Shown: piece after piece, positions 16,317 through 56,607 of the stretch
Position numbering within the stretch: the stretch's first letter is position 1
Layout: each line of letters begins with the position of its first letter
Origin: Nannochloropsis salina CCMP1776
Lineage: Eukaryota; Sar; Eustigmatophyceae; Eustigmatales; Monodopsidaceae
Length of the DNA stretch: 64,000 bases
Assembly (NCBI GenBank): GCA_004565275.1
Contig: SDOX01000005.1
Coordinates: 1,338,765 to 1,402,764 of the forward strand
Direction of reading: 5' to 3'
Program-made: the position numbers and the translations under genes
The notes under the pieces: model-generated
What the model was told of the DNA's origin: nothing
Database searches by the model: none
Seen by the model: only the letters and a program-made list of their open reading frames with translations

Positions 16317-17211
16317 GGGAATAGGCCCCAGGCGGGGAGTGGAGGGAGGAAGGGGTGTATAGAGGGGACCTGCGGACATGACGGCAAATAAGGCAGTGCC
16401 AGAGACATGCAGGGGGCAACGAGGTGGCAGACGCAGGTTGCCCGCGAGCACGGGAGAAGAGAGACATAAGACCACGCATCGGGGAAGACGTGCTTCCCAC
16501 CCCGTTCCTGCGTTTCGAAAGAAAGGAGGGATGGTCGGCAAATCTGGTGATTTCACTTCGGACCTAACTGTGTGTTTCGTAGGAGCGCTTCGACAGTCAC
16601 TCGCATTTAGGGGAGTGACGCGCCGACTCTAGACACAGGGTCGGTTTTAAAAATGCAGGGGACAAAGAAAATTCACATGCAAATACAAAGGGGCCGTACG
16701 TTGAAGAGGTACGTAGGGAAGGACTTCAACATGTGTTCAGGGTCATGTATAGACATTCCTATTTTCGCTCGCCATTATTCGCACAATACTCACTATCGCG
16801 TTTCGTGGACGGGCTCAGACCACCATGTGAATTCAATTCTTTGTTTTTAACTCCTTGAGCTCCTTGATAAAGCCATTCATTTGGTTGCATAGTCGTTTCG
16901 AAGCTTTCATTCAGGTCACACCCCTCTGTATAGTCCCTCATCAGTATCAGTAGCTCTTTGGTTCGAGCTTCATGATGCCACTTCCATCTGGTCTCACATT
17001 CATTCCATCATTAAACAAATTCACAACTTTTGCCGAATATTCCAATCATTTCAACCAAACTATAGGTCGCACCCTCGGTCACGTGTTTTGCATGAACAAG
17101 TACTTTGAGCATCCACCAACAATTTTCCTGCCCGCGCACATTGCGAAAAAGCAAAAGCCAAAGAACGTACCCTCCCGTACCAGCCATGGGCCAACATCCT
17201 CCCATTTGCGT
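16317..17211. other. 3' region of N-glycanase, homologous to 20.56-21.5 kb
   Basis: No supported gene. The sequence from the PNGase stop onward aligns by eye, with substitutions and indels, to the stretch after the PNGase fragment at 20.5 kb (for example the block around 16400-16600 with 20620-20830, and 16980-17200 with 21190-21490). It is the convergent spacer between PNGase and the S-family last exon, present in two diverged copies. Confidence 0.6.
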
Positions 17212-17398
17212 CTACTTGGCACTTACGACCTCGTCCTCCATCCGATCCGCCACGCTCATAGTGAGGGGCAGCTGGGTGCCGCTTGCGACGCCCCGGCCTA
17301 GGCGAATCCTCCATTTGATCTTGTAGGACTTGCCGAGGACGATACCATCCGCAGGGAGGGCCCACGTGAGCTCGTCGTCCGTCTTGACGTAGCGAAGC
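17212..17398 (-). pseudogene. S3: orphan last exon of the secreted S-protein family
   Basis: Same length (187 bases), acceptor position, phase and stop as the last exons of S1 (21509-21695) and S2 (28714-28900), but with many substitutions: LRYVKTDDELTWALP against [15 protein letters not shown], ending MEDEVVSAK. Upstream, intron-like sequence continues to about 17.68 kb and then stops at the inverted Twinkle-tail junction. No other exons of the gene remain. It is probably a relic, although the exon itself is undamaged. Confidence 0.7.
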
Positions 17399-17683
17399 CT
17401 GTGGCACAAGGCGAGAGAGGGAAAAGGAATGCATGAGAAACAGAAATGACACAAGGGAGCCGGAGAAGGCACGGGAAGAGGGGACGTTGACGATGGAGAC
17501 TGAGAATCGGCATGACAGAATAGGGCATGACAGAAGACGAAACGTCGGTTATAACGCGAAATCAAGCGACAGTGTGTGGCAAAAGGGCCTGTCGAATGCC
17601 TTCATAGCTGTAAAGAGGCATGTCGTACACGTGCCGGATTGGGATACTCACTTCTCATGACTATGGGCGATTCGTTGCGGCCG

Positions 17684-19800
17684 GTAGATCCAAAGCGACG
17701 CAGGACGTGGACAACGTGGTCATCCTCCAACGCCACCAGGGCCGTCATTACCTGGACGTGCGGAAGAATCGATACGACGGGGACCTGGGCGTGGTCCCCC
17801 TGGCCTTCCAGAAGCAGACGGGCACGTTGGTAGAGATGGAGGACAACGGGTTGGGCTTGAGTTTGGAACGGGAAACCATGTACGGCGGGGGGGGTTGGAA
17901 GCCGATGGGTAGTGGAGGGGGAGGGGATCGACCGGTGGTTCAAGAGAAAACGTCGCATTGATTGGCGTCCATGGATGGTGGGGGCGGGGGGGAGGTTGTA
18001 CGCTAGGACGGTGGAAGGAGTAAGGGGGGGGGAGGTCAAGGAAACTGAGGGGAGGGCTCACAGTAAAGGAGTGGCTGAAGCACAGAGAGGATAAAAAGCA
18101 AGATAATCGTACAGATACGGTTCCCGTCGTGGCGTATCCCCTAACTGGCCGATCTCCAGTAGCCGCCCTCTCACAGATACTTGTATATTGGGGGGAAAAC
18201 CCTTCTATGGTGAGGGGCAGCAACAGACACCATTTCACTCCATACATGCAACCTCACCCTTATTTAGCTTTTTTTTTCCTTTTTCGTAGTACAAATGTAT
18301 GCTGCACACGCTGCACACGCTGCCCTATTGCTTTTAATCGGGATAGCCAGGAGGATTATTGGGAGACCGACAGAGAGACAGGTAGATAGACAGGCACGTG
18401 CGAAAAAGAACACGCAAAAGTATAAAAAGTCGTAAAACAACTCATATGACGGAGCAAGAGTCTCTGACATGCTTGACATTAGTGCTCCATCCCAATTCTC
18501 AAACAACTGGTATTTCCTTCCGCACGATCCGTCCTCGGCAGCTTATCACCGGGCAGTAGACCGTCATCCATTCTCTCGTCGACGGCATCGGTAAATATGA
18601 CGGCCAATACTTGTTCTGAGCATGCATAATAACGTACGATTACTTTATTGCATGCTTCAAAGTCATTGATCTCCTCCATTGAGAGTCCATGTCTTGTGGA
18701 GTCCGAACGTCAGCCCGGGAAACGCTCCCGAGTTCAAAAATCAGAGCCATTCCTGGTGCGGGTGGTAATCTCCGTCTCCCCGCATTCTTTCGTAACCCAT
18801 TGAGGCTTCAGACTCAATTTTGCGATGCAAAGTTTGGTAGCAAGGTCTCCGCGTCAATTGCCGTTCTCGTAATCAAGAGGTATGCTTAACTTGTAGATTT
18901 CTTGCTCCTCTGATGCCTATGCATAAGTTAATCAAGTTTTTTAATTAGTTCCGGGCAGCGATTACCTTTTCCACCGAGAGCCGCTTCGGGTCAACAATCC
19001 GGCATTTTCCTTCTCAGTCAGTCGTTGCCCAGGGTCAGCGGGATGAATGACAATTGCCTCGTATCGTCCATTCTATGTGATAGGCATATTATGGTGTCCT
19101 TTCCTACTCTGTTGGCGACACGGGTCACCGTGACGGGTGGTAATCGCCTATGCCGGAAGCCAGCCGTTACAAGATGGCAAGCCATTTTCCTACCCAAGAC
19201 ATCCCATTACACGTACCACTCGTTTTGTAGAGCGAGAACTCGCATCCTACATTCTATTAAAAGTCATGCTGGTCTCCTATTTTTTTTCAAATGAGAACTC
19301 CTATCAAATGTTTTAATCGCTCACGACTAGATTCGATAGAAAAACGTTTCTCCCGAAAGAAAACCCTACCCTCTTTTTGACTCATGTTGGTGGTAAATGG
19401 GCCATTTCGTCCGACACCCCTTCCCAGGGAGTTCTTTAGAAAGTGTTTCCGTGATGAGAGGTATACTTTGCATCGCATTTCTGGGTCATGCTTTTTGATG
19501 GCGAGAAACATGTGGTGTCAACTACGCGGCGCGTTCCGTTTCGAACAGGAATAAGGTTAATCGACCTTGAGATCCCTCCAAGGCCTCTGCTTTTATTGAT
19601 TGATCGTTGTCAGCGGGCATATGTATATTTCATGCTTAGTCAGCCAAACTGATCTTGTCATGACAGCCTCGTTAGCCTTTCGGATTTAATTCTTTTTCCG
19701 TCAAACATAATCCCCGCAAGCTCACATTTCTAACGGAAGCCTTCCGTCCTTACCTGCTCATTTTGACAGACTTGACAGCCATCACCTTGTCTTCAAAAGA
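17684..19800. repeat. Inverted, diverged copy of the Twinkle-tail/intergenic block
   Basis: Reverse-orientation counterpart of 31.2-33.5 kb and 25.3-27.56 kb. Landmarks in order: Twinkle 3' coding end (17692-17961), the CTGTCTATCTACCTGTC-type stretch (about 18380), the 72-codon frame near 19290-19511, and the segment just upstream of the S2 start codon (19740-19806). It is the most diverged of the three copies and shorter than the others. Confidence 0.85.
17692..17961 (+). pseudogene. Inverted fragment of the Twinkle 3' coding end
   Basis: Encodes the last 90 residues of Twinkle (from KATQDVDNVVILQRH through DRPVVQEKTSH and the stop) in the plus direction. The real gene at 33.3 kb is on minus. 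Homology starts abruptly at the same codon as the fragment at 27.56 kb, where the parent GTAKATQ becomes GRSKATQ in both copies, so these two fragments share one breakpoint. Without the helicase core it cannot be functional. Confidence 0.85.
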
Positions 19801-19805
19801 TAACT

Positions 19806-20045
19806 ATGTCAAACCACTTTTCCTATAAATTTGGACAAGGTCTGGTCCTTGGCATGCTGTTCCTATTGCCAACCCATCACCGTGGCGGTGCCCCAGGTGA
19901 CCCCGACGCCGGAAGGGGAAGACGTCGTCGTTCCTATCACTGCACCGGGTACGAAGGCGACAGTGGGTGACATGTAGTGCGCCAACGTCACCAGCGCCGA
20001 CATTACGGTACGCGGGCAGCGGAAAGGAGGATTCTCGGAGGGAGG
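19806..20045 (+). pseudogene. Collapsed S-family gene: S2-type start fused to S1-type linker end
   Basis: Plus strand. Bases 19806-19885 match the first 26 codons of S2 (MSNHFSYKFGQ to PTHH). This joins directly to the end of the Pro-Thr linker and the start of the C-module ([19 protein letters not shown] type, with small indels), then to the following donor site and intron start (GTACGCGGGCAGC), and at 20046 to N-glycanase sequence. The whole N-terminal domain and most of the linker are missing. It is a recombination product, not a gene. Confidence 0.75.
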
Positions 20046-20830: not shown

Positions 20831-20887
20831 TCCCTATAACATGTAGCTGGAAGAAGTGATTTGCGGACTTTAGACGCAGGGGAGGTC

Positions 20888-22751
20888 ATAAAATCACACG
20901 AAGCTAGACAGGTACCAAAGCTTGAAGAGGCAGAGGAGACGAGGGGAAGCCTCGGAATACCTTCAGGATCATGTGTATGCGTTTCGTTTCCCACTCCCTC
21001 CTGCTCTCACAACACTCATTGTTGCCTTGCATAGAAGGGCCCAGATCACCATTTGAATTCAATTTTCTGCTTTCAGCTTGTTGATGGAGTTCATCATTCG
21101 GGTTCACAGTCGTTTCGAGGCTTCCAATCACGAGGCTTCCCATCATGAAGACCAGAGCTACGGATCCCACCCTCCGTACAAACATTTGTCAGTATGAGTG
21201 GATATCTTTGCCTCAAGCTTCACGATGACCAATTCATCAAGACGTATATTAGATTCATCACTTGCCAAACTCACATTCTTCTCAAAACGTTCAATCATAG
21301 AGACCGAAGATATGGGTCGCATCTTCCGTACAGTCCCTTAGCTGTATTAACACTTTCAACATTCAAAAAATTCAATGTTCACATCAATTTTGTTTCCCTC
21401 CCTCAGGGAAAAGGAGGAAACGTCAAACCACAACGTACCCTCCCGTACCAGCCACGGGCCCGCTTCCCTGAACTACATTATGGTTTGTGTTTGTTGCTTA
21501 TATCGCGTCTACTTGGCCGTGACGACTAAGTCCTCCATCCAGTCCGCCACACGCACAGTAAGGGGCAGCTCGGTGCCGCTGGCCACGCCCCGGCCCATGT
21601 GGATCCTCCATTTGATCTTGTAGGTCTTTCCAAAGACGATGCCTCCCACAGGAAGGGTCCACGCGAGCTCGTCGTTCGTCTTGACGTAGCGAAGCCTGGA
21701 CAGAGGGCACGAGAGCAAATGTGAGGGCACGAGAAACAGCAACGCAATGACAAGCAAACAAGAACATGCGGCAGGATGGATGCTTGAAGTTTAGACGTGG
21801 ACGAGGAAATGAGATCGACAACCCAGCGTGCCAGGGGCATGCCATGCGAACGGACAATAGAATATGACGACTCAACCATCTGATCCTGCCTGGCGCTGAG
21901 AGAGAATCAAACAAATCGCGAGACAATAACCGAGACAATACATAAAAAGACGAGGTATAATAAATAAGAGACAGATATAGGGACGGAGCGAGAAGCACGT
22001 ACTTGGGCCTCCACGTGTTGGGCCGAAGTTTGCCGCGCTGGAAGCTCAGGGCCTCGTCACCGAGTCGGGCAGGCTTGAGCACCTTTGTACTGCGACCCTG
22101 GAGAAGCCGTGTCGCGTGCCCTTGGACGTGGAGGGCGGAGGTATTCCCTCCCAGCAGGCACTGTAGGGGAACAAGTGTGGGAATGGAGCCGCGAGGTCCG
22201 GTTGTGAGGAAATCATACACAGAGCTATGAACCGTTCCTTCCTTCTCATCCCCCCCGCTCAGGTGTTCTTTCGCCCTGCGGCCTTTCTACGTCTTCCAGC
22301 CCGTCCCTTGATGTTGTTTCCACCCACCGAGACGACCACGTCCTCCACAGGCCGCTCCAAGAACAGCAGGTCCAAGAGGACGGTGAACCGGCGCCCCGGA
22401 GCCTGCACTAAGGACTTCAAGTAGGCTTGAGCCAAAAAGGTCGGCGACGTGACGGTGCCGAGGGCGAAGGGACTCAGGGAGGAGACGACGCCGCACACCA
22501 GCTGCGCGACGGGGTCCACGCTTGTGGTCACGTCCGCCCAGGCATTGTTGGTGAAATGAAAGAGACGAGGCTGCGTGCCGGCCGGGAAGGCGGAAGGGAG
22601 GTAGGACAGGCAGACCGTGATGTCTCCGCTGAAACTGGCATTGGTAGTGATGAATTTGTAGGTAGGAGGGTCACCCAGGATGAAATTGCTGGGCGGCACG
22701 AAGAGGGGGTCGGAGGGGTCGGGAATCACGTTCACCACCACCTGTGTATGA
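20888..22751. repeat. 1.86-kb near-identical duplicate (partner 28093-29956)
   Basis: Offset to the partner is a constant 7205 bases through the coding part. The two copies differ by only a handful of bases by eye over most of the length, with changes clustering near the right end (around 22630-22690). Homology ends sharply about 10 bases inside the intron that follows 22741. The block holds the last three exons and the 3' flank of S1/S2. Confidence 0.92.
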
Positions 22752-24646
22752 TCAGGAGGGAAAGCGGGTACGGCATTTGAGCATATTGGCACACGGCGGC
22801 ACCAGCGTCCTCATTCCTCCCCTCCGAGCACCCTTCTTTCAGCTGTCCGCGTACCGTAATGCCGGGGCTGGTGACGGATGCGAATTCGATGTCTCCCACT
22901 GTCATGTTCGTGCCCGGTGCAGTGATAGGAACGACGACGTCTTCCCCTTCCGGCGTCGGGGTCACCTGGGGCACCGCCGGGGTGGGCGCAGGGGTGGACG
23001 TCGAAGGAGTGGGGGAAGCAGTGGGAGATGGCGTGGGCGCCGGCGTGGGAGCGGGCGTAGGTGAAGCCGTCGGAGAGGCCGTCGGGCCTGCGGTGGGAGT
23101 CGCCGTAGGGGTCATTGTCGGAGTAGCTGTAGGCACGGCTGTTGGGGAGGGTGTCGGGCTTTCGGTGGGCGTCGGAGTGGGCGCGGCAGTAGGCGTGCCA
23201 GAGACAATGTTGATGGGCCAAAAGCCTGGTTCGCCGACCTTGGCAGGGTCGTCATCATAGGACACGATCCACGGCGAGGTGACGGCACTCCCATTCACGA
23301 GGATATCGCTGGTCGAAGGACCCCAGTAATTATCTGTGGCATTGGCACTACCGGTGCCATAGTTACGGAGTGCCCACACGTCAGTGCTGTTTTCGATCCC
23401 TAGGTTCTTAAAATTGTTGAAGTTGATGCGAATGGTAGAGGCATCGATAGGAATGCCACCAAAAAGGTCAGATATCAAAATGCCGTGAGACAAAAACTCT
23501 GACTCGGGCGTGCCATTATAGTCGAAGATGTTATTCGTGATACTGCAATTGCTTGAAGGCGGCTTGGGCTGCGAATCACCGTCGAATAAATAGAGGGCAT
23601 ATCGATAACTATCGGAAAACGTATTCCCGTTGATAATTCCATCGTACAACCACACCACACCAAGGCCAAACCGCACCTTGTCAAATATGTTGTCTGTAAC
23701 AAGAGCGTTACCTAGGACACCGTTGAATGCACGTCCGTTGTCATAAGGATCACGCCCAGGCACCGTACCGACAAAGTTGTTTCCCTGTATCGTAATCCCA
23801 ACAGGATAAGCTTCTCCGTCAGGGAAAAACGGGCCGAAACAGAAATAGTAGCTCACGATCTCGTTGTCTTTAATCATCCAGTTGTTGCCTTTTGCCAGAC
23901 TGTACAGAAAGGTCCTCGCGAACGTCTCGATATAGTTCCGCTCGAAGGTGATATAATTCGCGGTTTTATCGGGGGCACCGAACTGAACAATGCCGTTCTG
24001 ATTTGCCGTATAATCATCCGTAGACTTCAGAATGCTGTTTTTAATTGTCAAGCTAACGACATCTGCATTAGCGTCAAGCGCGCGAGATCCCATATTGGGC
24101 ACCTTATGAGGAATAGGTTGATCAGTGTGACGAGGGGAAAGATATATGATAAGGGAAAGGTGCATTATTTGACGTGTAATAATAAAATCGATACATGTCG
24201 GCATGTGTTGACATCGATGCAAGAACATACACCCACACACTCCCTCTAGCCCTTCCATCCTATAATACTCTTACGAATATTCCGTCCGCCGTGGCCCCAG
24301 TCCCTCCAGTAATGACGAATAGAACACCCCCGCTGTGCGTAAAAACGGTTTCGTTCACAGGATATGGATCCCCGAGAGCCCAATTGCGAGCTTCTCGCGT
24401 GCGAGCATCGACCCCAGCCTGGGCACCTTGGAGGATCAGCCCTTTAGTAGCCAGGTCAATAAATGCGTCACTGTAATTGCCTGCGGCGACACAGATCACC
24501 TGGCCACCAAGGGCACTGGTAACGGCTTCGGATATAGTTGCAAATTGACTTGGAACATTGATCTCACAGGATAGTGGCGCCGCCATGCTTTGCGAGCCGA
24601 GCAGTGTAAGGCCCAGGACCATGGACAGGGTAGATGGCTTGAGCAT
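21509..24646 (-). CDS. S1: secreted beta-helix protein with PT linker and bacterial-type C-module
   Basis: Exons 24646-24275, 24102-22855, 22741-22328, 22160-22003 and 21695-21509 join in phase to about 792 aa. Start [23 protein letters not shown] reads as a signal peptide. Residues about 25-420 form a right-handed parallel beta-helix of the bacterial NosD/pectate-lyase-like kind (ATISEAV opening, repeated N-N-x-F and GNxF turns, [10 protein letters not shown] near the end). Residues about 423-500 are a (PT)-rich linker with a roughly 4-residue period. After PQVTPTPEG comes a module I know from bacterial surface proteins: [36 protein letters not shown], then [27 protein letters not shown] final 150-residue tail ends MEDLVVTAK. 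No enzyme motif seen; an extracellular or cell-wall role is inference. The intron falls exactly at the module edge (GIT|VVV). Bacterial origin by transfer is likely but unproven. Confidence 0.8.
22970..23205. repeat. Pro-Thr linker coding repeat of S1
   Basis: Degenerate 12-base period encoding PTx-P type repeats ([16 protein letters not shown] style) on the minus strand. It separates the beta-helix from the C-module and is typical of O-glycosylated extended linkers in secreted proteins. Confidence 0.85.
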
Positions 24647-25284
24647 CGTTCGGAGAAGCGAGCGGAGCGTATCGCGGAGACGTGTCCTGATGTAAGCGTG
24701 TATAGCCAATGGTAAGAGAATGAGATGTAAAGGTTGTTCTTGACGTGCTTTATTTGGCCACGTGGGGCCCATGCGGTCGTATGTTTACAAACTCATCCTC
24801 AACATGGCCTTCAGCAGGATATGGGATGCGGTTTCGGATAACTCAAATAACAATCTCAAAATGACTACGAATAGGCTGTAAAGTACATTTTGATGAAGCA
24901 ATGTCAAGAAAGTGTGTACAAGCGCCTCTAGCTAACAAAATGGAACACGCAGATAAAACCTTGATAACACTGGGCCAGCGATGAGGCTCGTATACCTGTA
25001 CTTGACCTCTAATCCTAAGGGATAGCAGACAGCGATGTACTTTAGGAAGCACCTACTGAAGTAATCAGGTGAAAAAAAAAGATATTTACAAGCGAACATA
25101 CCACGCGAATCTCTCACAGAAGAAGTAATTCATCAGGTACACTCCCTGATCTCATGCCCTAGCACCGCGAAAAGGCATAGAAATATTTGTCGAATATAAC
25201 CGCCGAGAGGTCTCTTGAAGAAGTATCTACATTTTTTTGTAATGCCTTTATCGAACTGTCGCTTTAAAATCCATCTACAGGATT
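24647..25284. promoter_or_regulatory. Upstream region of S1, unique sequence
   Basis: No supported gene. This segment is not shared with the upstream region of S2, so S1 and S2 have different promoters even though what lies further upstream (25.3-27.5 and 31.26-33.5 kb) is duplicated. Confidence 0.5.
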
Positions 25285-27562
25285 AGTCAGCTCTTACTAA
25301 CTAAGGACGGAAGGGTTCCGTTAGAAATCTGAGCTTGCGGGGATTATGCTTGACGGGAAAAGAATTAAATCCGAAAGGCTAACGAGGCTGTCATGACAAG
25401 ATCAGCATGGCTGACTAAGCATGAAATATACATATGCCCGCTGACAACGATCAATCAATAAAAGCAGAGGCCTTGGAGGGATCTCAAGGTCGATTAACCT
25501 TGTTCCTGTTCGAAACGGAACGCGCCGCGTAGTTGACACCACATGTTTCTCGCCATCAAGAAGCACGACCCAAAAATGCGATGCAAATTATACCTCTCAT
25601 CACGGAAACACTTTCTAAAGAACTCCCTGGGAAGGGGTGTCGGACGAAATGGCCCATTTACCACCATGAGTCAAAAAGAGAGTAGCTTTATCTTTCGGGA
25701 GAAACGTTTTTCTACGCTGTGCTCCGTCTACAAACTCACCCTAGCAGAGTGTTTTTAGCGTCAACATTCGTCCACTCGTTGTCTATGCGTACATGTCCAC
25801 ACGCATATGCATATGTGTATTGTCATGCTCATACGTGAGACGAATGGCATAATGTGCATGTCTTGTCCACTAAACGGTTCTCGGTGGCGGCGAATCTACC
25901 GTGTCGGAGGGAATGGGCGATTACTACCCGTCACGGTCACCAGTGTCGACAATAAAGTAAAAGAGGACACCTAACATCGGCTCTATTGCATGAAATGGAC
26001 ACGGAAAGGCAATTGTCGATCGTCCCGATAATCCCGGCCATTTTTTTGCATGACAAGTAGTACGTGTCATGGGATGCCTTGGGTGGACTGAGGAGGGAAT
26101 AGATTCATCTTGAAACCGCTATCACAAAGATTGGGCGATTCCTACCGTCACGGTGATCCTGGAATCGATATGGAAAGGCATTTATCGACCGTCTCGGTGA
26201 CCCCGGGCAAGGACGGACTGAGAAACGAAATGTCGGATTGTTGAGCGAAGTCGGCTATCTTAGGGTAAGGCGAGAGCTACCCGGGAATAGTTAAAATACT
26301 TGATTACCTCATGTATAAGACAGTTACTCATGTATAGGACGGAAAAATCTGAGGTCTCTACGCATTGAGCATGCCTCATGATTTAAAAGGACGGCAATCG
26401 ACACAGAGAACTTGTTTACAAAATGTGCATCGCAAAATTTACTCGCAGATCTCAAGAGAATTCAAAACACGGCGGGAGAAGGATGTTACCACCCTCATGA
26501 GGGATGGCTCTGACTTTCCACACGGGAGCGTTTACCGGCCTGACGTTTGCGCATCTCGTGACATGGATCCTAAACGTTGGAGATGAATGACTTTGAAGCC
26601 CGCAATACATGCACTCATCGAATATTATGCATATTTGGAATGGATATTGGACGATTATCGGTGCCGACGACGGGAGACCGGATGACGGGCTGGTGCTCGA
26701 TGATAAATTTCCGAGGACAAATTCTGCAGAAGGAAAACCAATCGATTGAGAGAAGAATGTAATGGGATGAAGCACAATTGTCAAGCACATCAGAGCCCGT
26801 TGTTCCTTGACATGAGCGATATAATAATTTTAGTGATGATATTCGCACGCACCTGTCTATCTACCTGTCTGTCTGTCGGTCTCTTCATATTCCTCCTGAA
26901 CCTCCCGGTGAAAAGCTACAAGGCATGGTGTGCGGCATACATTTGAAAAATAGATATATGGAAACAGACAGCTACATGAGGGTAAGGTTGCATGTATGGA
27001 GTGAAATGGTGTCTGTCTTTCCCCCCCCCACTATTCTTCATAAAAGGGGTTTCCCCCCCAATATACAAGTATCTGTGTGAGGGCGGCTACTGGAGATCGG
27101 CCAGTCAGGGGATACGCCACGACGGGGACCGTATCTGTACGATTATCTTGCTTTTTATCCTCTCTGTGCTTCAGCCACTCCTTTACTGTGAGCCCTCCCC
27201 TCAGTTTCCTTGACCTCCCCCCCCCTTACTCCTTCCACCGTCCTAGCGTACAACCTCCCCCCCCCGCCCCCCACCATCCGTGGACGCCAATCAATGCGAC
27301 ATTCTCTCTCGAACCACCGGTCGATCCCCGCCCCCTCCACTACCCATCGGCTTCCAAACCCCCACGCCGTACATGCTCTCCCGCTCCAAACTCAAGCCCA
27401 ACCCGTTGTCCTCCACCTCCACCAACGTGCCCGTCTGCGTCTGGAAGGCCAGGGGGACCACGCCCAGGTCCCCGTCGTACCGGTACTTCCGCACGTCCAG
27501 ATAATGACGGCCCTGGTGGCGTTGGAGGATGACCACGTTGTCCGCGTCCTGCGTCGCTTTGG
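25285..27562. repeat. Duplicate block B: intergenic sequence plus Twinkle tail (partner 31255-33530)
   Basis: Same orientation and order as 31.26-33.53 kb, with scattered substitutions and short indels; the opening bases (TAAGGACGGAAGGGTTCCG) match at 25299 and 31262. It holds a 72-codon open frame (25543-25758), degenerate GTCACGGT-containing motifs near 25930 and 26140, a CTGTCTATCTACCTGTCTGT stretch near 26860 and, at its right end, the Twinkle tail. Confidence 0.9.
27291..27562 (-). pseudogene. Duplicated fragment of the Twinkle 3' coding end
   Basis: Minus strand, like the parent. Encodes KATQDADNVVILQRH through DRPVVRERMSH and the stop. Homology to Twinkle ends at about 27562 in the same place as in the inverted fragment at 17.69 kb; beyond it lies N-glycanase sequence in the opposite sense. 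An open frame reads through the junction, but it has no helicase core. Confidence 0.85.
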
Positions 27563-27567
27563 ATCTA

Positions 27568-28092
27568 CCGGTCAGCTCCTCTCCCCCACCTTCGCCTGCC
27601 CCGCCTTCTCCCCCCATCCCTAAGCGGCCCCGCGTGCACATAACACGGGACGACATCCTCTCTTTCAGCGCAGGCACGGCCGAAGTCGGGTCTCAAACGG
27701 GGCATGTGGAGGAGGAGAGTGGAGACGACGACGACGAGGCAGCGCCCAAACCCATCACCTGCATGTCCTTCGACGTGGAGATCAATGACTTTCAAGCATG
27801 CAATAAAGTAATCGTCCGTTATTATGCATGCTCAGAACAGGTATTGGCCGTCACATTTACCGATGCCGCCGACGAGAGAATGAATGACGGTCTACTGCCC
27901 GGTGATAAGCTGCCGAGGACGGATCGTACTGACGGAGGAAGCGACCTACGCCCCGGACCGGACACCCACAGAGGCCATGGCGGCACTCAAGCGGCTTCTC
28001 GAATGGTTCAAAGAGGGGTTCCTATACTACAAATCGACGTGCCTCCACTGCGGACACATCCGACCTTCCCATTCTTCCCTCCCCGCCCAGGC
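27568..28092 (+). pseudogene. Mosaic N-glycanase fragment with a foreign 146-bp insert
   Basis: Three pieces in order: PNGase-like 27568-27780 (parent about 14.67-14.88 kb, with RPRVHITRDDIL and PKPITCMSFDVE), then 27781-27926 from the intergenic block (best match the reverse of about 18.53-18.68 kb), then PNGase-like 27931-28090 (parent about 15.29-15.45 kb, ending near the CLHCGH zinc pair). It directly abuts the near-identical S2 block at 28093. A chimeric open frame spans it by chance; the last piece is out of the PNGase frame. Confidence 0.82.
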
Positions 28093-29956
28093 ATAAAATC
28101 ACACGAAGCTAGACAGGTACCAAAGCTTGAAGAGGCAGAGGAGACGAGGGGAAGCCTCGGAATACCTTCAGGATCATGTGTATGCGTTTCGTTTCCCACT
28201 CCCTCCTGCTCTCACAACACTCATTGTTGCCTTGCATAGAAGGGCCCAGATCACCATTTGAATTCAATTTTTTGCTTTCAGCTTGTTGATGGAGTTCATC
28301 ATTCGGGTTCACAGTCGTTTCGAGGCTTCCAATCACGAGGCTTCCCATCATGAAGACCAGAGCTACGGATCCCACCCTCCGTACAAACATTTGTCAGTAT
28401 GAGTGGATATCTTTGCCTCAAGCTTCACGATGACCAATTCATCAAGACGTATATTAGATTCATCACTTGCCAAACTCACATTCTTCTCAAAACGTTCAAT
28501 CATAGAGACCGAAGATATGGGTCGCATCTTCCGTACAGTCCCTTAGCTGTATTAACACTTTCAACATTCAAAAAATTCAATGTTCACATCAATTTTGTTT
28601 CCCTCCCTCAGGGAAAAGGAGGAAACGTCAAACCACAACGTACCCTCCCGTACCAGCCACGGGCCCGCTTCCCTGAACTACATTATGGTTTGTGTTTGTT
28701 GCTTATATCGCGTCTACTTGGCCGTGACGACTAAGTCCTCCATCCAGTCCGCCACACGCACAGTAAGGGGCAGCTCGGTGCCGCTGGCCACGCCCCGGCC
28801 CATGTGGATCCTCCATTTGATCTTGTAGGTCTTTCCAAAGACGATGCCTCCCACAGGAAGGGTCCACGCGAGCTCGTCGTTCGTCTTGACGTAGCGAAGC
28901 CTGGACAGAGGGCACGAGAGCAAATGTGAGGGCACGAGAAACAGCAACGCAATGACAAGCAAACAAGAACATGCGGCAGGATGGATGCTTGAAGTTTAGA
29001 CGTGGACGAGGAAATGAGATCGACAACCCAGCGTGCCAGGGGCATGCCATGCGAACGGACAATAGAATATGACGACTCAACCATCTGATCCTGCCTGGCG
29101 CTGAGAGAGAATCAAACAAATCGCGAGAAAATAACCGAGACGATACATAAAAAGACGAGGTATAATAAATAAGAGACAGATATAGGGACGGAGCGAGAAG
29201 CACGTACTTGGGCCTCCACGTGTTGGGCCGAAGTTTGCCGCGCTGGAAGCTCAGGGCCTCGTCACCGAGTCGGGCAGGCTTGAGCACCTTTGTACTGCGA
29301 CCCTGGAGAAGCCGTGTCGCGTGCCCTTGGACGTGGAGGGCGGAGGTATTCCCTCCCAGCAGGCACTGTAGGGGAACAAGTGTGGGAATGGAGCCGCGAG
29401 GTCCGGTTGTGAGGAAATCATACACAGAGCTATGAACCGTTCCTTCCTTCTCATCCCCCCCGCTCAGGTGTTCTTTCGCCCTGCGGCCTTTCTACGTCTT
29501 CCAGCCCGTCCCTTGATGTTGTTTCCACCCACCGAGACGACCACGTCCTCCACAGGCCGCTCCAAGAACAGCAGGTCCAAGAGGACGGTGAACCGGCGCC
29601 CCGGAGCCTGCACTAAGGACTTCAAGTAGGCTTGAGCCAAAAAGGTCGGCGACGTGACGGTGCCGAGGGCGAAGGGACTCAGGGAGGAGACGACGCCGCA
29701 CACCAGCTGCGCGACGGGGTCCACGCTTGTGGTCACGTCCGCCCAGGCATTGTTGGTGAAATGAAAGAGACGAGGCTGCGTGCCGGCCGGGAAGGCGGAA
29801 GGGAGGTAGGACAGGCAGACCGTGATGTCTCCGCTGAAGCTGGCATTGGTGATGATGGACTTGTAGGTAGGGGGGTTGCCCAGGATGAAATTGCTGGGCG
29901 GCACGAAGAGGGGGTCGGAGGGGTCGGGAATCACGTTCACCACCACCTGTGTATCA
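28093..29956. repeat. 1.86-kb near-identical duplicate (partner 20888-22751)
   Basis: Right-hand copy of the block carrying the last three exons and 3' flank of the S genes. The left edge lies exactly at the end of the PNGase mosaic; the right edge is just inside the intron after S2 exon 1. Confidence 0.92.
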
Positions 29957-31210
29957 TCCAAGAGAGACAAACGAAAAAAGAAACATTAGCTTACCCCCCT
30001 GCAAGATCCACGCACGCACCGCATTTTCAATGGCACGGTCTGCAGAGAGATTCCGCTTCCCACGCCCGCGTACCGTGATCCCGGGGGCCGTGACGTTGGC
30101 GAACTCGATGCCGCCAGAGGTGGTGTTGGTGGCCGGGTCCAGGATAGGAACGGCGACATCTTGGCCTTCGGGCGTGGGCGTCACCTGAGGTACGGCGGGG
30201 GTGGGCGCAGGGGTGAAGGATGAGGGAGTCGGAGAGGCGGTGGGAGCCGCGGTAGGGATGGCGGTCGGAGAGGCGGTAGGAGCCGCGGTGGGGATGGCTG
30301 TCGGGCTCGCGGTGGGAGCTGCTGTAGGGATGGCTGTCGGGGTCGCTGTGGGGGTCGGCGTTGGGACCGGTGTGGGAGTTGCGGTAGGTGCTGGAGTGGG
30401 AGGGATCGTGGTCGAGACCTCGACGGAATGAAAGTAGAAACCAGCACCTTGGGTGTCAGGCGCGTTGTCCCCACTGGCCCGAACGAGCAAGGCGTTGACG
30501 GCTTGCAATATAGAATCGTTAGGGTTATCAATAAAATAACCCTCCCAGCTCAGGCCTGTGTGGATAAGGGTGTCGTTGAGGAAAACGTTCACCACGTCAT
30601 TGTCGGGACCCTCCATGAACTGAATCGTCGTTTCCACGGTGTGCAGGTCTGTGTAGGAAAGACCGGTGGCAATCTTGGTGAAATTGAATCCCGGAAATTC
30701 GGTGGAATTTAATCCCGAAAAATAATCATAGAATCCCAGATCGATCCCGCTCCCGCTGTCTTCAAGGCCCACCCAACTCATGCGATTGCCGACACCTTTG
30801 GCAGAGGCAGACAAAGACAGAACTAGGCCGGGTTGAGGGGCGCCGGTGGCGGAGCCGAACACCACGCGCGAGTAGAAGGTCGACGCAGTGGCGTTGGCAC
30901 TGTTAGGGCCATCGAGACTGCTCCCAGGCTCGCCTGCTACTTTCGCAGTGATCGGGGAATAGGGCTGGTTGCCAAAACCACCGCTAGTTATTGCGTTTGA
31001 CATCTGCCAGACGCGTGTTCCTGCGGCATCGAGGGTGATGGCCTGATCAAACAGGTCGTCTGCGGTCCAGCCGAATTGATTGTTGATAGTTCCGTTTTGA
31101 AAACCCTCGAAAGAGGCCGCTGTTGCCATATTTCGGTGGTGGGTTGGCAATAGGAACAGCATGCCAAGGACCAGACCTTGTCCAAATTTATAGGAAAAGT
31201 GGTTTGACAT
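28714..31210 (-). CDS. S2: secreted jelly-roll-like protein with PT linker and bacterial-type C-module
   Basis: Exons 31210-30074, 29946-29533, 29365-29208 and 28900-28714 join in phase to about 631 aa. The leader has a hydrophobic core, GLVLGMLFLLP, and reads as a signal peptide. Residues about 33-262 form a domain unlike S1: FEGFQNGTINNQFGW, VWQMSNAITSG, FYSRVVFGSATGAPQPG, MSWVGLEDSGSG and FLNDTLIHTGLSWE. This pattern recalls bacterial secreted, lectin/jelly-roll-like proteins; the recognition is by eye. A PT linker (about 265-345) includes a 12-residue repeat. From PQVTPTPEG onward the C-module and tail are those of S1, diverged before the intron and near-identical after it. The 5' flank differs from that of S1. 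No catalytic motif seen; an extracellular or cell-surface role is inferred. Confidence 0.8.
30227..30345. repeat. 36-bp coding minisatellite in the S2 linker
   Basis: Three consecutive near-identical 36-base units encode PTASPTAIPTAA repeats on the minus strand. This order is tighter than that of the S1 linker, so the repeat expanded separately in S2. Confidence 0.85.
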
Positions 31211-33256
31211 AGTTATCTTTTGAAGACAAGGTGATAGCTGTCAAGTCTGTCAAAATGAGCAGGTAAGGACGGAAGGGTTCCGTTAGAAATCTGAGCTTGC
31301 GGGGATTATGCTTGACGGGAAAAGGATGAATTCCGAAAGGCTAACGAGGCTGTCATGACAAGATCAGCATGGCTGACTAAGCATGAAATATACATATGCC
31401 CGCTGACAGCGATCAATCAATAAAAGCAGAGGCCTTGGAGGGATCTCAAGGTCGATTAACCTTGTTCCTGTTCGAAACGGAATGCGCCGCGTAGTTGACA
31501 CCACATGTTTCTCGCCATCAAAAAGCACGACCCAAAAATGCGATGCAAATTTTACCTCTCATCACGGAAACACTTTCTAAAGAACTCCCTGGGAAGGGGT
31601 GTCGGACGAAATGGCCCATTTACCACCAACATGAGTCAAAAAGAGGGTAGCTTTATCTTTCGGGAGAAACGTTTTTCTACTCTGTGCTCCGTCCACAAAC
31701 TCACCCTAGCAGAGTGTTTTTAGCGTCAACATTCGTCCACTCGTTGTCTATGCGTACGCGTCCACATGCATATGCATATGTGTATTGTCATGCTCATATG
31801 TGAGACGAATGGCATAATGTGCATGTCTTGTCCACTAAACGGTTCTCGGTGGCGGCGAGACTACCGTTTCGGAGGGAATGGGCGATTACTACCCGTCACG
31901 GTCACCAGTGTCGACAATAAAGTAAAAGAGGACACCTAACATCGGCTCTATTGCATGAAATGAACACGGAATGGCAATTGTCGATCGTCCCGATAACCCC
32001 GGCCAATACTTTGTATGACGAGTGGTACGTGTCATGGGATTCCTTGGGTGGACTGAGGAGGGAATAGATTCATCTTGAAACCGCTATCACAAAGATTGGG
32101 CGATTCCTACCGTCACGGTGATCCTGGAATCGATATGGAAAGCCATTTATCGACCGTCTCGGTGACCCCGGGCAAGGACGGACTGAGAAATGAAATGTCG
32201 GATTGTTGAGCGAAGTCGGCTATCTTAGGGTAAGGCGAGAGCTACCCAGAATTAGTTAGAATACTTGATTACCTCATGTATAAGACAGTTACTCATGTAT
32301 AGGACAGAGAAATCTGAGGCCTCTACGCATTGAGCATGCCTCATGGTTTTAAAGGACGGCAATTGACACAGAGAACTTGTTTACAAAACGTGCATCGCAA
32401 AATTTACTCGCAGATCTCAAGAGAATTCAAAACACGGCGGGAGAAGGATATTACCACCCTCATCAGGGATGGATCTGACTTTCCACGTGGGAGCGTTTAC
32501 CGGCCTGACATTTGCGCGTCTCGTGACATGGATCCTAAACGTTGGAGATGAATGACTTTGAAGCCCGCAATACATGCACTCATCGAATATTATGCATATT
32601 TGGAATGAATATTGGATGTCACGATTACCGGTGCCGACGACGGGAGACCGGATGACGGGCTGGTGATCGGTGATAAATTTCCGAGGACAAATTCTGCAGA
32701 AGGAAAACCAATCGATTGAGAGAAGAATGTAATGGGATGAAGCACAAATGTCAAGCACATCAGAGCCCGTTGTTCCTTGACATGAGCGATATAATAATTT
32801 TTGTTGTTACATTTGCACGTACCTGTCTATCTACCTGTCTGTCTGTCGGTCCCTTCATACTCCTCCTGAAGCTCCCGGTGAAAAGCTACAAGGCATGGTG
32901 TGCGGCATACATTAGAAAAATAGATATATGGGAACAGACAGCTACATGAGGGTAAGGTTGTATGTATGGAGTGAAATGGTGTCTGTCTTTCCCCCCCACT
33001 ATTCTTCATAAAAGGGGTTTTCCCCCATTATACAAGTATCTGTGGTAGAGCCGCCACTGGAGATCGGCCAGTCAGGGGATACACCACGACGGGAACCGTA
33101 TCTGTACGATTATCTTGCTTTTTATCCTCTCTGTGACTCTGCCACTCCTTTACTGTGAGCCCTCCCCTCAGTTTCCTTGACCTTCCTCCTCCTTACTCCA
33201 TCCACCGTCCTAGCGTACAACCTCCCCCCCCGCCCCCCACCATCCATGGACGCCAA
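31211..33256. repeat. Duplicate block A: parental intergenic sequence between S2 and Twinkle
   Basis: Left to right: S2 upstream region (31211-31260), then the block shared with 25.3-27.2 kb and, inverted, 17.96-19.8 kb. It has a 72-codon frame at 31505-31723 also open in block B, GTCACGGT-type motifs, and poly-C stretches just downstream of the Twinkle stop. I see no supported gene in it. Confidence 0.75.
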
Positions 33257-35977
33257 TTAATGCGACGTTCTCTCTCGAACCACCGGTCGATCCCCTCCCC
33301 CTCCACTACCCATCGGCTTCCAAACCCCCACGCCGTACATGGTTTCCCGTTCCAAACTCAAGCCCAACCCGTTGTCCTCCACCTCCACCAACGTGCCCGT
33401 CTGCTTCTGGAAGGCCAGGGGGACCACGCCCAGGTCCCCGTCGTATCGATTCTTCCGCACGTCCAGATAATGACGGCCCTGGTGGCGTTGGAGGATGACC
33501 ACGTTGTCCGCGTCCTGCGTCGCCTTGGCCGTGCCCGAGAAGGAGGAAATTCCGAGACGGAACTGATCGCTCTCCTTGCGGGGGTGCACCACCAATATCA
33601 CGTGAATGTTCTTCTCCGTGGCAAAGCGTCGAAATTTCTCCACCGCCACGTCCATCTGATAAAACCGGTCAAAGCCCCCTTTTCCCCCCCCCATTCCCCC
33701 TTCCCGGCTCCCCATGGCCATCATGAACTGGAGGTTGTCCAGCACCACCAACTCCGTATCATGCACATAGGCACAGTACTCCATCGCATCCACCACCTCC
33801 TCCACGTTCGAGCTGCCATGAAACCGCATGAACATAAGCGGGAGCTGCCCAAACCGGTCGGCCACAGCGTCCAAGCTTTTCAAATCCCCCATGGGCAACG
33901 GGGCGGCGTGGTATTGCCGCATCATCTTCTCAATCAACTTGACGTTTTGCACCTCAAACGACCCCCACAGCGTGTTCATGCCCCCCCGGGCCAGGTCCAG
34001 GGAAAGCTGCGAGAGGAAGGTGGTTTTCCCCGCGCCCGTGGGGCCTGTCAAGACCGTCATTTCCCCCTTCCGAAAGCCTTTGAGCAGCGCCATCAGGCCC
34101 GGGAAAGACTTGGCCGAGACGCCTTCGTGCTTGTCCCGGTTCCGCAGCTCATCAAACACCAAGGGGCGAAGGTCGGAGAAACGGATGACACGCGTGTCGG
34201 GGAGCCGTTGCGCATTTTGAATCATCCGTTCCAAATTCAAATTTCGAAGCAGGGCATCGTTGGCGTCCTTGGGGGGGTCGAGGTCCTCCGGGAACGCTCG
34301 GACGATAAAGGTGCGGCGGGCCCCCAATTTATTCGCGAACTTTTCCGCGCCTTCAATGCCCGGCGTGTCGTTGTCCATCCACAACAAAATTCGCTCGAAA
34401 CGCTCGAGCAATGGGAGGACTTCAACCGGTAACGATCGACAGCCGTTGGGAAGAGAAACGGCCGCCCGGCCCGTGGCCTGGTACACCGCCATAGCGTCGA
34501 ACTCCCCTTCGGTGAGAATGATCTCCTTGGCGTCCGCGCCCACCGTATGGAGACCAAAGAGGCCCCATCCCGCGGAGGGGGAGGGGTACAGCCGCTGCCA
34601 CGCCTTCTGCTTCATGGCCCGGACCTTGCAGCGCCGAGGTACCCAGGTCGGGGCGGAGGACGGGGCGGAGGTCGGGAGGGAGGGCGTGCCGGGGGGGAGT
34701 TTGCCGGGCAAGGGAACCATCCAGGGGAAGACCACGCACTCTGTGGGCTCGAAGACGTTTTGGTCGTTCATAAAGGAGAACGTACCGCACCCCACCCCGT
34801 ACTTCCTTAGGACGGTGGGGGTCAGGCCGCGTTGTCCCGGCGCTTTTCCGGTGAGCCAGTCCCGGACGTGCCGGTGGGACGGGTCGTCCATCAAGGCGTA
34901 CTGGTACTCGCGGAGGCGTTGGCCCAGCTCGGAAGGGGACATGCGGGACGGGGAGGGAGGGGCGGAGGGAGGGGCGGGACTCGAACCGGGAGCTGGACGT
35001 CTTGCCACGCTTGTCGAGGTCACCCGGCTATCCAGAGCCTCGCCTTGACGGTCCCCTCCCTGTGCCCCTCTCGTCTGCCCATACGCCCTCCCTCCCTCCA
35101 TCCCTCCCTCCATCCCTCCCTCGAGGCCTCCACTACCGAGTGGCTCCGGGTAGCCTCCCCAAGTCGCCTCTGCCCCCACCCCGTCCCGCGAGCTCAACGG
35201 ATTTAAGCACCCCGCTCCGCTCCCGGAAAGGCCCCTCTTGAAATCAAACCAGCTGCCTTTGGCGCCGCACCGGTGACAGAACCAGGCTGCTCCGTCCTTG
35301 GACACGTAGAGTTTCCACAGGTTGTCCGCTTGATCCCTGGTGGGACGGTGGCAGAACGGGCACTCTTTCAGGATGAAGTGGGAGGCTGTCTCACGGAAGG
35401 TCAAGTCTTTCCGGTGCAAGAATTCGATCACGTCCCCCGCTTCGATCCGGTAGTATTTCGAGACAAAGGTCGTTCCGCCGGGAGGGGAGGAGGAGGGAAG
35501 GGGGGAGGACGGGAAGGAGGGCGGGTAGGAGATGGTGGGAGGGAGGTAACTAGCGCTTGAGGATTTGTGCCGACGTTGTCTTGGCAGCTGCAATGAAAAT
35601 GAGCACCAGGGCGAAGAGTGGGTGGCTTGTCGGGGAAGGGAGGAGACCCAGGAGGAGGAAGGAGCGGAGGGGGTGGAGGGGAAGGTTAAACATGGTGGGA
35701 AAACGCGGACGGCCCGACTTGCTGCCCGTGGTGGCTGCTGTGAATGCTTTAAGTGCCTGGTTCCGTATGGTTGTCTTACTCTGTCGTCCACTCGAAGCGA
35801 CTGCTGCTGCTCCTGAGTGCTATTTCGTGTAAAACAGGCCGTCGAACACCTCGCTGAGACCTCTGCACCTAGCGGCTTACTCTTTGCATCCTGTCCATGG
35901 TGCCGACCCCACACCTGCCCAAGCTTCCTGACATAGCCCGCGTCTTGGTGTTTCACACTGGCGGTCAGGCGCAGCAT
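33257..35977 (-). CDS. TWNK: Twinkle-type primase-helicase (organellar DNA replication)
   Basis: Hexameric DnaB/T7 gp4-like helicase for mitochondrial and, in plants and algae, often plastid DNA; plant-type forms also prime. Up to about 906 aa from ATG 35977. In order: T7-primase-like zinc part with CPFC and WFCHRCG (about residues 204-240), TOPRIM domain with LTEGEFDAMAVYQ and LLWMDNDTPG (485-540), then RecA-like helicase with Walker A TGPTGAGKTTFLSQ (about 645), LWGSFEVQN, Walker B LVVLDNLQFMMAMG (about 743), VVHPRKE and NVVILQRHQGR...RKNRYDGDLG near the end. Keeping both the zinc part and TOPRIM predicts primase plus helicase activity, unlike animal Twinkle. The N-terminal 170 residues are low-complexity and of uncertain coding status; an alternative start in another frame at about 35696 opens with a hydrophobic leader. 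Its tail is copied at 27.3 and 17.7 kb. Confidence 0.92.
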   Translation of the reverse strand: MLRLTASVKHQDAGYVRKLGQVWGRHHGQDAKSKPLGAEVSARCSTACFTRNSTQEQQQSLRVDDRVRQPYGTRHLKHSQQPPRAASRAVRVFPPCLTFPSTPSAPSSSWVSSLPRQATHSSPWCSFSLQLPRQRRHKSSSASYLPPTISYPPSFPSSPLPSSSPPGGTTFVSKYYRIEAGDVIEFLHRKDLTFRETASHFILKECPFCHRPTRDQADNLWKLYVSKDGAAWFCHRCGAKGSWFDFKRGLSGSGAGCLNPLSSRDGVGAEATWGGYPEPLGSGGLEGGMEGGMEGGRAYGQTRGAQGGDRQGEALDSRVTSTSVARRPAPGSSPAPPSAPPSPSRMSPSELGQRLREYQYALMDDPSHRHVRDWLTGKAPGQRGLTPTVLRKYGVGCGTFSFMNDQNVFEPTECVVFPWMVPLPGKLPPGTPSLPTSAPSSAPTWVPRRCKVRAMKQKAWQRLYPSPSAGWGLFGLHTVGADAKEIILTEGEFDAMAVYQATGRAAVSLPNGCRSLPVEVLPLLERFERILLWMDNDTPGIEGAEKFANKLGARRTFIVRAFPEDLDPPKDANDALLRNLNLERMIQNAQRLPDTRVIRFSDLRPLVFDELRNRDKHEGVSAKSFPGLMALLKGFRKGEMTVLTGPTGAGKTTFLSQLSLDLARGGMNTLWGSFEVQNVKLIEKMMRQYHAAPLPMGDLKSLDAVADRFGQLPLMFMRFHGSSNVEEVVDAMEYCAYVHDTELVVLDNLQFMMAMGSREGGMGGGKGGFDRFYQMDVAVEKFRRFATEKNIHVILVVHPRKESDQFRLGISSFSGTAKATQDADNVVILQRHQGRHYLDVRKNRYDGDLGVVPLAFQKQTGTLVEVEDNGLGLSLERETMYGVGVWKPMGSGGGGDRPVVRERTSH

Positions 35978-36675
35978 GGCTTTGCCCCTTTTCAATGCTC
36001 CCGATTTGCAACCAGTGGTGTCCGTAGCCCTGTCGCGGGCGAAGCGCTTTCTACACCTGATACCAGGGCCAAGGGCGGTCAACACCGCCTTTCACCTGTG
36101 ATTAATTAAACATGTGCGTAACTTTAAGAAGTATTTTCCATGTACGTGACGGCAGAGGCAACATAAAGGCCGTGGCGGCATCGACATATCGGTCGATGTG
36201 CCTTGGGGAGGCGGTCGACGAAAAGGCGATGGGTATCAATGTAGAACGCCCGTCCCCCCAAAGTCTGAATTCGTGTCCAGCCTAGAGGGATGCAATGTCA
36301 GAGAGAGGGGTTCGCCATACATGTGGCCATGTTGTGCAATCTTCTCCGTGCCAGGGGCCTGGACTGAGACGTCGTGGGCTTTATTTCTTTACCTCCTCAA
36401 CGAAAGAGGTGGCTCTCTTTCCGACTCGGATGGATACTACATCGAAAAATGCGTCCTCACGCACACAGTGCGTACACATGTGCAACATTTCATCCGTAGA
36501 AGGATCATAGAGGACGTGATGACTCCTAATCGTGCCTTAGTATTGGTCTTTGGTGGGCAGATAGGGTTGTAGCAAGGACCACTTTTCGGAGGGGGGGGGG
36601 CTGCGACACGGTAGCCTGTTCACAGTGTCATGATATATCATTCCTGATTATGCCACAGGCGTAGGAACATCGTCC
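35978..36675. promoter_or_regulatory. Divergent region, Twinkle (-) / coiled-coil gene (+)
   Basis: About 700 bases between divergent starts, or about 980 if Twinkle starts at 35696. Short open frames on the plus strand have no resemblance to known proteins. No RNA gene seen. Confidence 0.45.
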
Positions 36676-56163: not shown

Positions 56164-56607
56164 AATGGATTGAACCATATAGCTCATGTGATACTACACG
56201 GAAGTAAGTAGACTTGGGCAGAGGCACTTGAGATGATTTTCAGCGTATCAAGACACGAGTCCTTCCTCTGGGCCGCGTGCTACATGGGCTTGCCGGCCGC
56301 AAACGGCTTCCAATGTCATGAAGAAGCGCATGCTTACCGACTACGAGATACCCTCTTACTGGCCCTAGCTGTACGACTCGATCCTTCATTGAAGACACGC
56401 AAAGAGCCAGGACGACGGGCAGCAGAGAAAAGGCTGCTGGATTAGGGATTGGCGAGCTAGCGTTTCTGATGAAGTGAGCAAAAGAAAACATGTTGCCTTG
56501 GCCTGCTGCTTGATTGCAGGTCTGAGTTGTAGAGCAGAGAGAGGGCAAAAGAAAAAACAGTATAGAACGAGGTTCCCCTATTACGTTAGCTACGATTACT
56601 TTGCTGC
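56164..56607. repeat. Dispersed repeat, copy 1 (partner 59111-59602)
   Basis: About 440 bases beginning TGGATTGAACCATATAGCTC and sharing long blocks with copy 2, including GAGTCCTTCCTCTGGGCCGC and the stretch around 56300-56450. The copies differ by substitutions and by insertions in copy 2. No terminal inverted repeat, poly-A tail or reverse transcriptase was seen, so the class is undetermined (perhaps a SINE-like or fossil non-autonomous element). Confidence 0.85.

Follow-up and report, generated by a model that had tools for sequence, protein, structure and literature searches.

Two predicted secreted proteins of Nannochloropsis salina with different heads on one bacterial-type C-module, and a probable exchange at their locus

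How two neighbouring genes of an alga could come to encode proteins that begin with unrelated domains and end in the same bacterial-type module is the question raised by a stretch of DNA from Nannochloropsis salina CCMP1776. This stretch, hereafter the window, is 64,000 nucleotides long and corresponds to C70:1338765-1402764 of the algal genome, which is designated G000. C numbers denote contigs of G000, L numbers denote fetched loci (bacterial and in some cases algal, e.g. L032 and L033), numbers from G001 onward denote other genomes, and positions given without a contig are those of the window. The two genes, S1 and S2, were originally predicted at 21509..31210 to belong to a family of chimeric secreted proteins that arose by bacterial transfer and subsequent domain exchange within the locus, and these coordinates agree with both gene models described here. 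The domains of these proteins were compared with bacterial genomes, plasmids, phages, viral contigs, PDB, Pfam, and NCBIfam. Based upon these sequence comparisons, transfer followed by exchange appears to be the best reading, and it is probable that S1 and S2 represent a secreted modular family of bacterial-type domains in which a head cassette was exchanged or conversion of the flanks took place, one edge of the event lying in the intron of the module.

Gene models, domains, and bacterial relatives

The genome containing the window comprises 26.5 Mb in 103 contigs. The light-harvesting family PF00504 was detected at 27 places in it and in none of 14 control genomes, and G000 is therefore considered to be the genome of a photosynthetic eukaryote; the predicted models of S1 and S2 also require introns, in agreement with an intron-bearing alga. 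Gene S1 (24646-21509, minus strand) is predicted to consist of five exons (24646-24275, 24102-22855, 22741-22328, 22160-22003, and 21695-21509) encoding 792 amino acids, and gene S2 (31210-28714, minus strand) of four exons (31210-30074, 29946-29533, 29365-29208, and 28900-28714) encoding 631 amino acids. Both of these predicted gene models, from which the joined proteins are read, are in frame with GT-AG introns and one stop codon, and both proteins end in ...EDLVVTAK.

The S1 head (23203..24646, its end approximate, with an intron at 24274-24103) comprises a signal-peptide-like start and a right-handed beta-helix, which scored 36.5 bits with the Pfam model Beta_helix (curated cut-off 25.9). 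It is followed by a proline/threonine (Pro/Thr) linker (22963..23203, limits approximate) and by the C-module (22457..22963, outer limits approximate), within which exon A ends at 22855, a phase-0 intron occupies 22854-22742 and exon B begins at 22741. In S2, likewise read on the minus strand, the head (30411..31210, its end approximate) consists of a signal-peptide-like start and a domain of about 240 amino acids with a paralogue on contig C56 (76% identity) and homologues in bacteria, and it leads into a Pro/Thr linker (30183..30411) and the C-module (29662..30183), the limits of which are again approximate; here exon A ends at 30074, the phase-0 intron spans 30073-29947 and exon B starts at 29946. 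The signal peptides and linkers were recognized by eye, without a predictor, and the linkers were delimited from the sequence. A search with either head did not recover the other. The two genes are 99.3% identical over 1871 bp that include exon B of the module, and their modules have in common the motifs FILG[DN]PPTY, ITVCLSY, VTTSVD, and SLSPFAL. Due to this identity, a ratio of nonsynonymous to synonymous divergence (dN/dS) of about 0.2, the presence of the module at 10 places in the genome and its bacterial homologues, the sharing of the module cannot be ascribed to chance. The original prediction agrees with these readings as to the signal-peptide-like starts and linkers, the beta-helix of S1, the unrelated heads and the common module.

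The jelly-roll fold that had been suggested for the S2 head was not borne out, as structure modelling failed and the hints from Pfam (Glyco_hydro_32C, E-value 0.011, in one of nine aligned members) and PDB (neurexin, E 0.67, ranked below the unrelated taxadiene synthase at E 0.025) were weak. When the S2 head, module, and tail were searched against Pfam, no match was obtained at E 1 or better. For the S2 head family no credible Pfam model was found, in NCBIfam nothing was hit but the sorting-signal ends of two bacterial proteins, and the sequence search of PDB with this head gave nothing credible.

A first scan of bacterial contigs with nine algal module rows yielded 28 stretches, none of which was a relative. 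A second scan, in which the first row was the real S2 module and the steering rows were synthetic, yielded eight relatives of seven named kinds among 23 stretches, viz. Terriglobia, Actinobacteria, Phycisphaerales, Yanofskybacteria, Thermoanaerobaculia, two Chloroflexi, and a Geobacteraceae metagenome-assembled genome (MAG), and all eight genomes matched again when searched anew. The Terriglobia match (L041) covers positions 1-125 of the query with 47% identity (E 9e-28), and the identity of the full-length module to bacterial sequences reaches 46-48%. In the phylum of G001, searches with the S2 head and module together matched 20 of 396 genomes, and in that of G002 they matched 27 of 396, the starting genome being included in each count; with the S1 head added to the query, 25 of 382 genomes in the phylum of G003 were matched, many of them via short and weak helix matches. 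In all these counts a genome matched at least one query domain. The S2 head obtained nine strong matches across the three draws, the best being L095 (52% identity over query positions 399-640, E 1.2e-51; 47% by BLAST), followed by L096 and L076 at 40% and the rest at 34-38%. Relatives of the S1 helix showed 35% identity over query positions 8-364 (E 1.2e-18) or weaker matches, in very long frames. By sequence, each of the three domains (module, S2 head, and S1 helix) is thus related to bacterial proteins. The proposal that the C-module is of bacterial type is upheld by the eight bacterial loci, and an absence of bacterial relatives, named beforehand as an outcome that would speak against it, did not occur.

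Among the matches listed, the S2 head and the module were not found at one bacterial place (G113 contains both, on different contigs); since at most five candidates were scored per genome in two draws and two in the third, a bacterial protein combining them may have been missed. In L042 (Actinobacteria), a Beta_helix match (E 3.3e-51) and two modules lie in one frame. The S2-head proteins of L076, L058, and L060 run on, by eye, into an apparent beta-helix, and those of L095 and L096 occupy short frames that have, by eye, a signal-like start; a C-terminal PEP-CTERM signal was identified in L096 (27.7 bits, cut-off 16), and L095 scored below its cut-offs. Tblastn searches of plasmids with the module, a consensus-like module, the S2 head, and the S1 head gave no match, nor did phages with the module as the only query, and scans of viral contigs (46, 27, and 23 stretches) contained no relatives.

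From the fetched loci of the second scan and the G001 and G002 draws, 43 module stretches were read. The module tree was constructed from the 42 bacterial rows longer than 85 amino acids and nine algal rows, leaving out hits without loci and the draw from the G003 phylum. The algal rows were monophyletic with 100/100 support on a stem of 0.77 changes per column; within them, C90 grouped with the four chromosome-end copies (100/100) and C56 with C87 (98/97). In an 11-row tree of S2-type heads, the two algal heads branched together (99/99) and were joined with L095 (92/89), which comes from the phylum of a Phycisphaerales MAG.

Duplicated blocks and a probable exchange of heads

The near-identity of S1 and S2 is confined to two duplicated blocks. 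The 3' block of S1 (20883..22753, minus strand) is the 1871-bp stretch matching 28089-29958 of S2, and its gene-side edge falls within the final nucleotides of the module intron; the upstream block (25302..27562, minus strand) is 95.4% identical over 2269 columns to 31264-33528 upstream of S2. Between them lies a cassette specific to S1 (22754..25301, minus strand), consisting of the helix head, the linker, and exon A, the S2 counterpart of which is 29959-31263. Within this interval only the linker and exon A stretch can be aligned (73.7%), and the heads are without similarity. In the alignment the 5' edge of this interval is abrupt and the 3' edge falls in the final bases of the module intron. 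Synonymous divergence (dS) between S1 and S2 is 0.93 in exon A and 0.074 in exon B, where nonsynonymous divergence (dN) is 0.0146 and dN/dS about 0.2. This fall in dS indicates that the age of divergence changes abruptly at the intron, and the exon B ratio that exon B is under constraint. In comparison to the C56 gene, exon A of S1 has a dS of 0.73, whereas exon A of S2 has a dN of 0 and a dS of 0.147, with an exon B dN/dS of about 0.21; the S2 and C56 heads differ with a dN/dS of about 0.44.

A third, broken copy, S3, is present at 19806..20010 on the plus strand (contig positions 1358570-1358659 and 1358643-1358774). Its head and linker are missing except for the first 30 residues of an S2-type head (19806-19895), which overlap an exon A match in another frame containing a stop (19879-20010). 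A remnant of the last tail exon at 17209..17400 (contig 1355973-1356164, minus strand) encodes protein 72% identical to the S2 tail. Because it is present both in the C56 gene, at 76% identity, and in S3, the S2-type head is likelier to be the older head at this locus; it is likelier that the S1 cassette is the intruder, or else that conversion affected the flanks. Within the upstream blocks are 3' fragments of a primase-helicase-like gene (named by eye), which were copied with the S1 unit. The long frame at 33257-36091 (minus strand) resembles by eye a Twinkle-type primase-helicase, and partial copies of such a gene were seen near 17681-18250 (inverted, close to S3) and 27290-27690.

On these observations, the domains likely passed from bacteria to an ancestor of the alga, duplication of an S2-type unit beside the primase-helicase-like gene likely followed, and the head cassette of one copy was likely replaced by a diverged beta-helix paralogue, or its flanks converted onto one. 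The reading frame would have been kept because one edge of the exchange is in the phase-0 module intron. As regards the proteins, glycans or other cells are plausible binding partners of the heads, the Pro/Thr linker could span the wall, and the all-beta module could be a rigid connector to the C-terminal tail, probably without self-cleavage. S1 and S2 would plausibly be located in the wall or medium, and a surface function is inferred for them.

A second account of the locus, which we regard as possible but clearly less likely, is that S1 and S2 are two old and separate paralogues, the 3' halves and upstream flanks of which were later gene-converted without any head having moved. The unequal identity of the flanks (99.3% downstream and 95.4% upstream) is what patchy conversion would produce, and the dS of S1 exon A to both C56 (0.73) and S2 (0.93) marks it as an old branch. 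However, on this account about 4 kb in total, to either side of the head, would have to be converted with the middle spared, and the 3' fragment of the neighbouring gene in the duplicated flank fits with copying of a whole S2-type unit. That the module and heads are old stramenopile domains inherited vertically, with the bacterial copies being distant cousins or reverse transfers, is unlikely. The long algal stem, the midpoint root of the tree, and a comparison made with bacterial and viral sequences are compatible with it, but the module occurs in bacteria of several phyla and the algal S2-type heads, 47-52% identical to L095, branch with L095 (92/89) apart from the other eight bacterial rows. 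It is very improbable that S1 is a pseudogene, or that unrelated pieces were joined in it by an assembly error: although the locus is rich in repeats and adjoins the broken S3, the 792-amino-acid frame is intact over five exons, its head is conserved with bacterial proteins and the exon B ratio relative to S2 is about 0.2.

Several points weigh against transfer followed by exchange within the locus. The part of the original prediction that concerned the exchange was supported only in that the difference between the heads ends sharply at the module intron; a search of G000 did not recover the S1 head anywhere else, the one other Beta_helix match being on C42, and a donor for the cassette was therefore not seen. 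The dN/dS of exon A is about 1 or more for S2-C87 (0.132/0.090), C56-C87 (0.132/0.129), and C46-C49 (0.051/0.039), and many of the distant pairs in this analysis are saturated. The place of the algal modules among the bacteria is weakly supported and the roots are midpoints; transfer via another eukaryote, or an old eukaryotic presence, may fit the trees as well. The single-sequence structure model of the S2 head was unusable, with a mean predicted local distance difference test score (pLDDT) of 31.5. Lastly, S1 and S2 are known here from DNA alone, and their proteins and localization are predicted. We nevertheless retain bacterial transfer with an exchanged head cassette, or converted flanks, as the preferred account.

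The C-module and its relatives, some of them near contig ends

A structural model of the L041 module, based upon its sequence and 10 further rows, including exon B of S1 and S2, had a mean pLDDT of 92.4, a predicted template modelling score of 0.84 and eleven strands. With Foldseek, its foremost matches in PDB were ankyrin ZU5 (E 0.014, probability 1.00), the GAIN domains of BAI3 (E 0.017, probability 0.99) and BAI2, and NLRP1; all of ranks 1-6 were ZU5, GAIN, or NLRP1 (probability 0.90-1.00, E 0.014-0.14, query template modelling score (TMq) 0.40-0.56). The module may, on this model, work as a ZU5/GAIN-like connector. Speaking against this, none of the matches reached E 0.001 and all had E 0.014 or more, and no ZU5 or GPS model was matched at E 1 or better in 22 module members, where the profile scan gave 13 chance-level families (best DUF4397, E 0.01; GPR128 GAIN subdomain A, E 0.097, in one member). 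Comparison of the module with PDB by sequence and profile gave nothing credible, and with NCBIfam and Pfam only chance-level names. As the fold match is weak and the profiles find no credible relation, the module is not assigned to the ZU5/GAIN family. In a viral structure library an uncharacterized phage protein was matched (E 1.7e-4, TMq 0.51) with a better E-value than any PDB entry.

The module ends in C-G-x-V-x-S-[LF]-S-P-F-A, its last strand beginning two residues after the Ser, and this end resembles the GPS motif. Self-cleaving GAIN and ZU5-FIIND domains require a His before Leu/Phe-Ser/Thr. The motif could be read in 45 of 51 rows (six were not read): Ser stands at the position of this His in all nine algal rows and in 42 of the 45 overall, His in one (L061), and other residues in two. 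Self-cleavage is thus probably absent in the algal module. A self-cleaving domain of the GAIN/ZU5-FIIND type, which would release the head or expose a tethered piece, is suggested by the leading Foldseek matches and by the resemblance of the module end with its strand just past the Ser; given the Ser in place of His and the weak fold match, we hold it to be improbable. L061, the sole bacterial row read with an HFSPFA end, is a candidate for self-cleavage.

The module family is larger than originally described. A search of G000 gave 21 rows, corresponding to 10 exon B and 11 exon A places; the exon B places are two on C70 (S1 and S2), one on C56, two in tandem on C87, and one each on C90, C46, C49, C1, and C31, making up nine genes, and the eleventh exon A place is the S3 remnant. 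The module intron is of phase 0, at the same residue and bounded by GT-AG, with a length of 113-162 nucleotides, in all nine copies measured (the first C87 module being left out of this count). The C90 gene runs on into PLA2_B (E 2.4e-24) and the C1 gene into a collagen-like tail (E 1.4e-74). The collagen-like frame is open in C1 and C31 to a common C-terminus, CEVRASRSILR, and shifts midway in C46 (L032) and C49 (L033), where repeat slippage, pseudogenes, or assembly errors could be responsible. The C87 gene has a different head with a PAN hint below the cut-off (E 0.062); a second copy of this head, 84% identical, is found at C16:14984-16102 (minus strand), a contig without a module match.

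TTAGGG arrays are located at contig ends of G000. Of nine ends read, six carry them (right of C1, C46, and C49; left of C31, C87, and C70); no array is present at the right end of C56 or C90, and the right end of C70 has just three units. The module loci are distributed over eight contigs: those on C1, C46, C49, C31, and C87 have an array about 3.6-8.2 kb from exon B, those on C56 and C90 lie close to contig ends that have no array, and the C70 locus is internal, as S1 and S2 are located about 200 kb into the contig. Next to the C49 copy, close to the chromosome end, copia-like retrotransposon polyprotein frames were recognized by eye (L033 1-2677).

The genes on C46, C49, C1, C31, and C90 share a head, termed head III, which had no Pfam match in the copies scanned. 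It accounts for 48 of 58 search rows, on 38 contigs (81 candidates seen, 57 scored); internal stops interrupt four of the 48 places, and the two on C69 could belong to a single gene. The first 10 kb of a contig contain ten of these places (C17, C23, C26, C31, C37, C41, C57, C70, C87, and C96), and all ten are on the minus strand, pointing outward; about 1.9 would be expected at contig starts, and the Poisson value of 2.6e-5 is a guide only, as the copies are not independent. Where the right end is known, four further copies (C1, C46, C49, and one of two on C90) lie no more than 10 kb from it, all on the plus strand. Against such clustering, C48:13548 (plus strand) lies past 10 kb, and places such as C78:891813 and C48:624952 are distant from the left contig end, the one from which they were measured. 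Examples include C57:2326-3210, C17:3360-4247, C26:2548-3393, C70:2991-3851, and C87:4552-5394. Collagen, phospholipase, and beta-propeller are among the tails read. SBBP propeller repeats (E 1.2e-18) were identified in the copy at C87:4552; the copy at C70:2991, which lies about 3 kb away from a telomere array, has a PT repeat and also, by eye, short STD.G.SW units in broken frames. The head III genes may form a large family of secreted proteins situated at chromosome ends. A relation of the S2 tail to head III seemed possible by eye, and BLASTP found none. Elsewhere in the window there is a direct repeat of about 240 bp (56165-56398 and 59114-59356, 93% identical).

Meaning and comparison with known systems

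For N. oceanica IMET1, 99 transfer candidates are given in PMC3886936. Among the matches listed from the open literature, by title and abstract opening, this family was not described, which is not proof of its absence. A broader interpretation is offered only tentatively: the alga may be a free-living phototroph with a chromosome-end repertoire of secreted proteins that combines shared pieces (head III, C-module, and Pro/Thr linkers) with bacterial-type parts (beta-helix, PEP-CTERM-protein domain, SBBP propeller, collagen-like, and phospholipase), the exchange of heads through recombination within a conserved phase-0 intron diversifying a surface that might be varied toward viruses, bacteria, or grazers. 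If true, captured bacterial extracellular domains would be used as interchangeable pieces with a conserved intron as the joint, which would make exon shuffling that followed a horizontal transfer directly visible and would point to a telomere-linked surface repertoire in a non-parasitic phototroph. Also of note are two bacterial domains for which no credible Pfam or NCBIfam match was obtained here, namely the C-module and the S2-type head.

Among the closest known systems are bacterial C-module proteins (for example L041, L042, and L043, from Terriglobia, Actinobacteria, and Phycisphaerales MAGs), whose full-length modules are up to 46-48% identical to the algal ones; L042, like S1, joins a beta-helix to the module, two modules being present in its one frame. 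They differ from the algal proteins in their uninterrupted and often long frames (4277 amino acids within the locus for L042) and in their neighbours, which in the frames scanned include NHL, HYR, Ig-like, and PKD domains in place of a Pro/Thr linker and tail. The PEP-CTERM (exosortase) proteins, represented by L096 and, below the cut-off, L095, resemble S2 in the head (37-52%) and in a signal-peptide-like start seen by eye, whereas S1 and S2 have by inspection, without a profile scan, no PEP-CTERM end and continue instead into linker, module, and tail. With the animal ZU5, GAIN, and FIIND domains the module may share a predicted fold class, judging by the model of L041, and it has a Ser just before the last strand, but there is no sequence match and the algal copies are without the His.

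The subtelomeric surface-protein families of yeasts and protists include the FLO/EPA adhesins. S1 and S2 differ from these in being internal to their contig, with no anchor seen and with bacterial-type parts, and no expression switching is known. A subtelomeric family of Candida albicans is treated in PMC9713401. The likeness to the FLO/EPA-type families lies in a shared module with changing partners, in linkers of low complexity, and in those algal head III relatives that are situated at contig starts and point outward.

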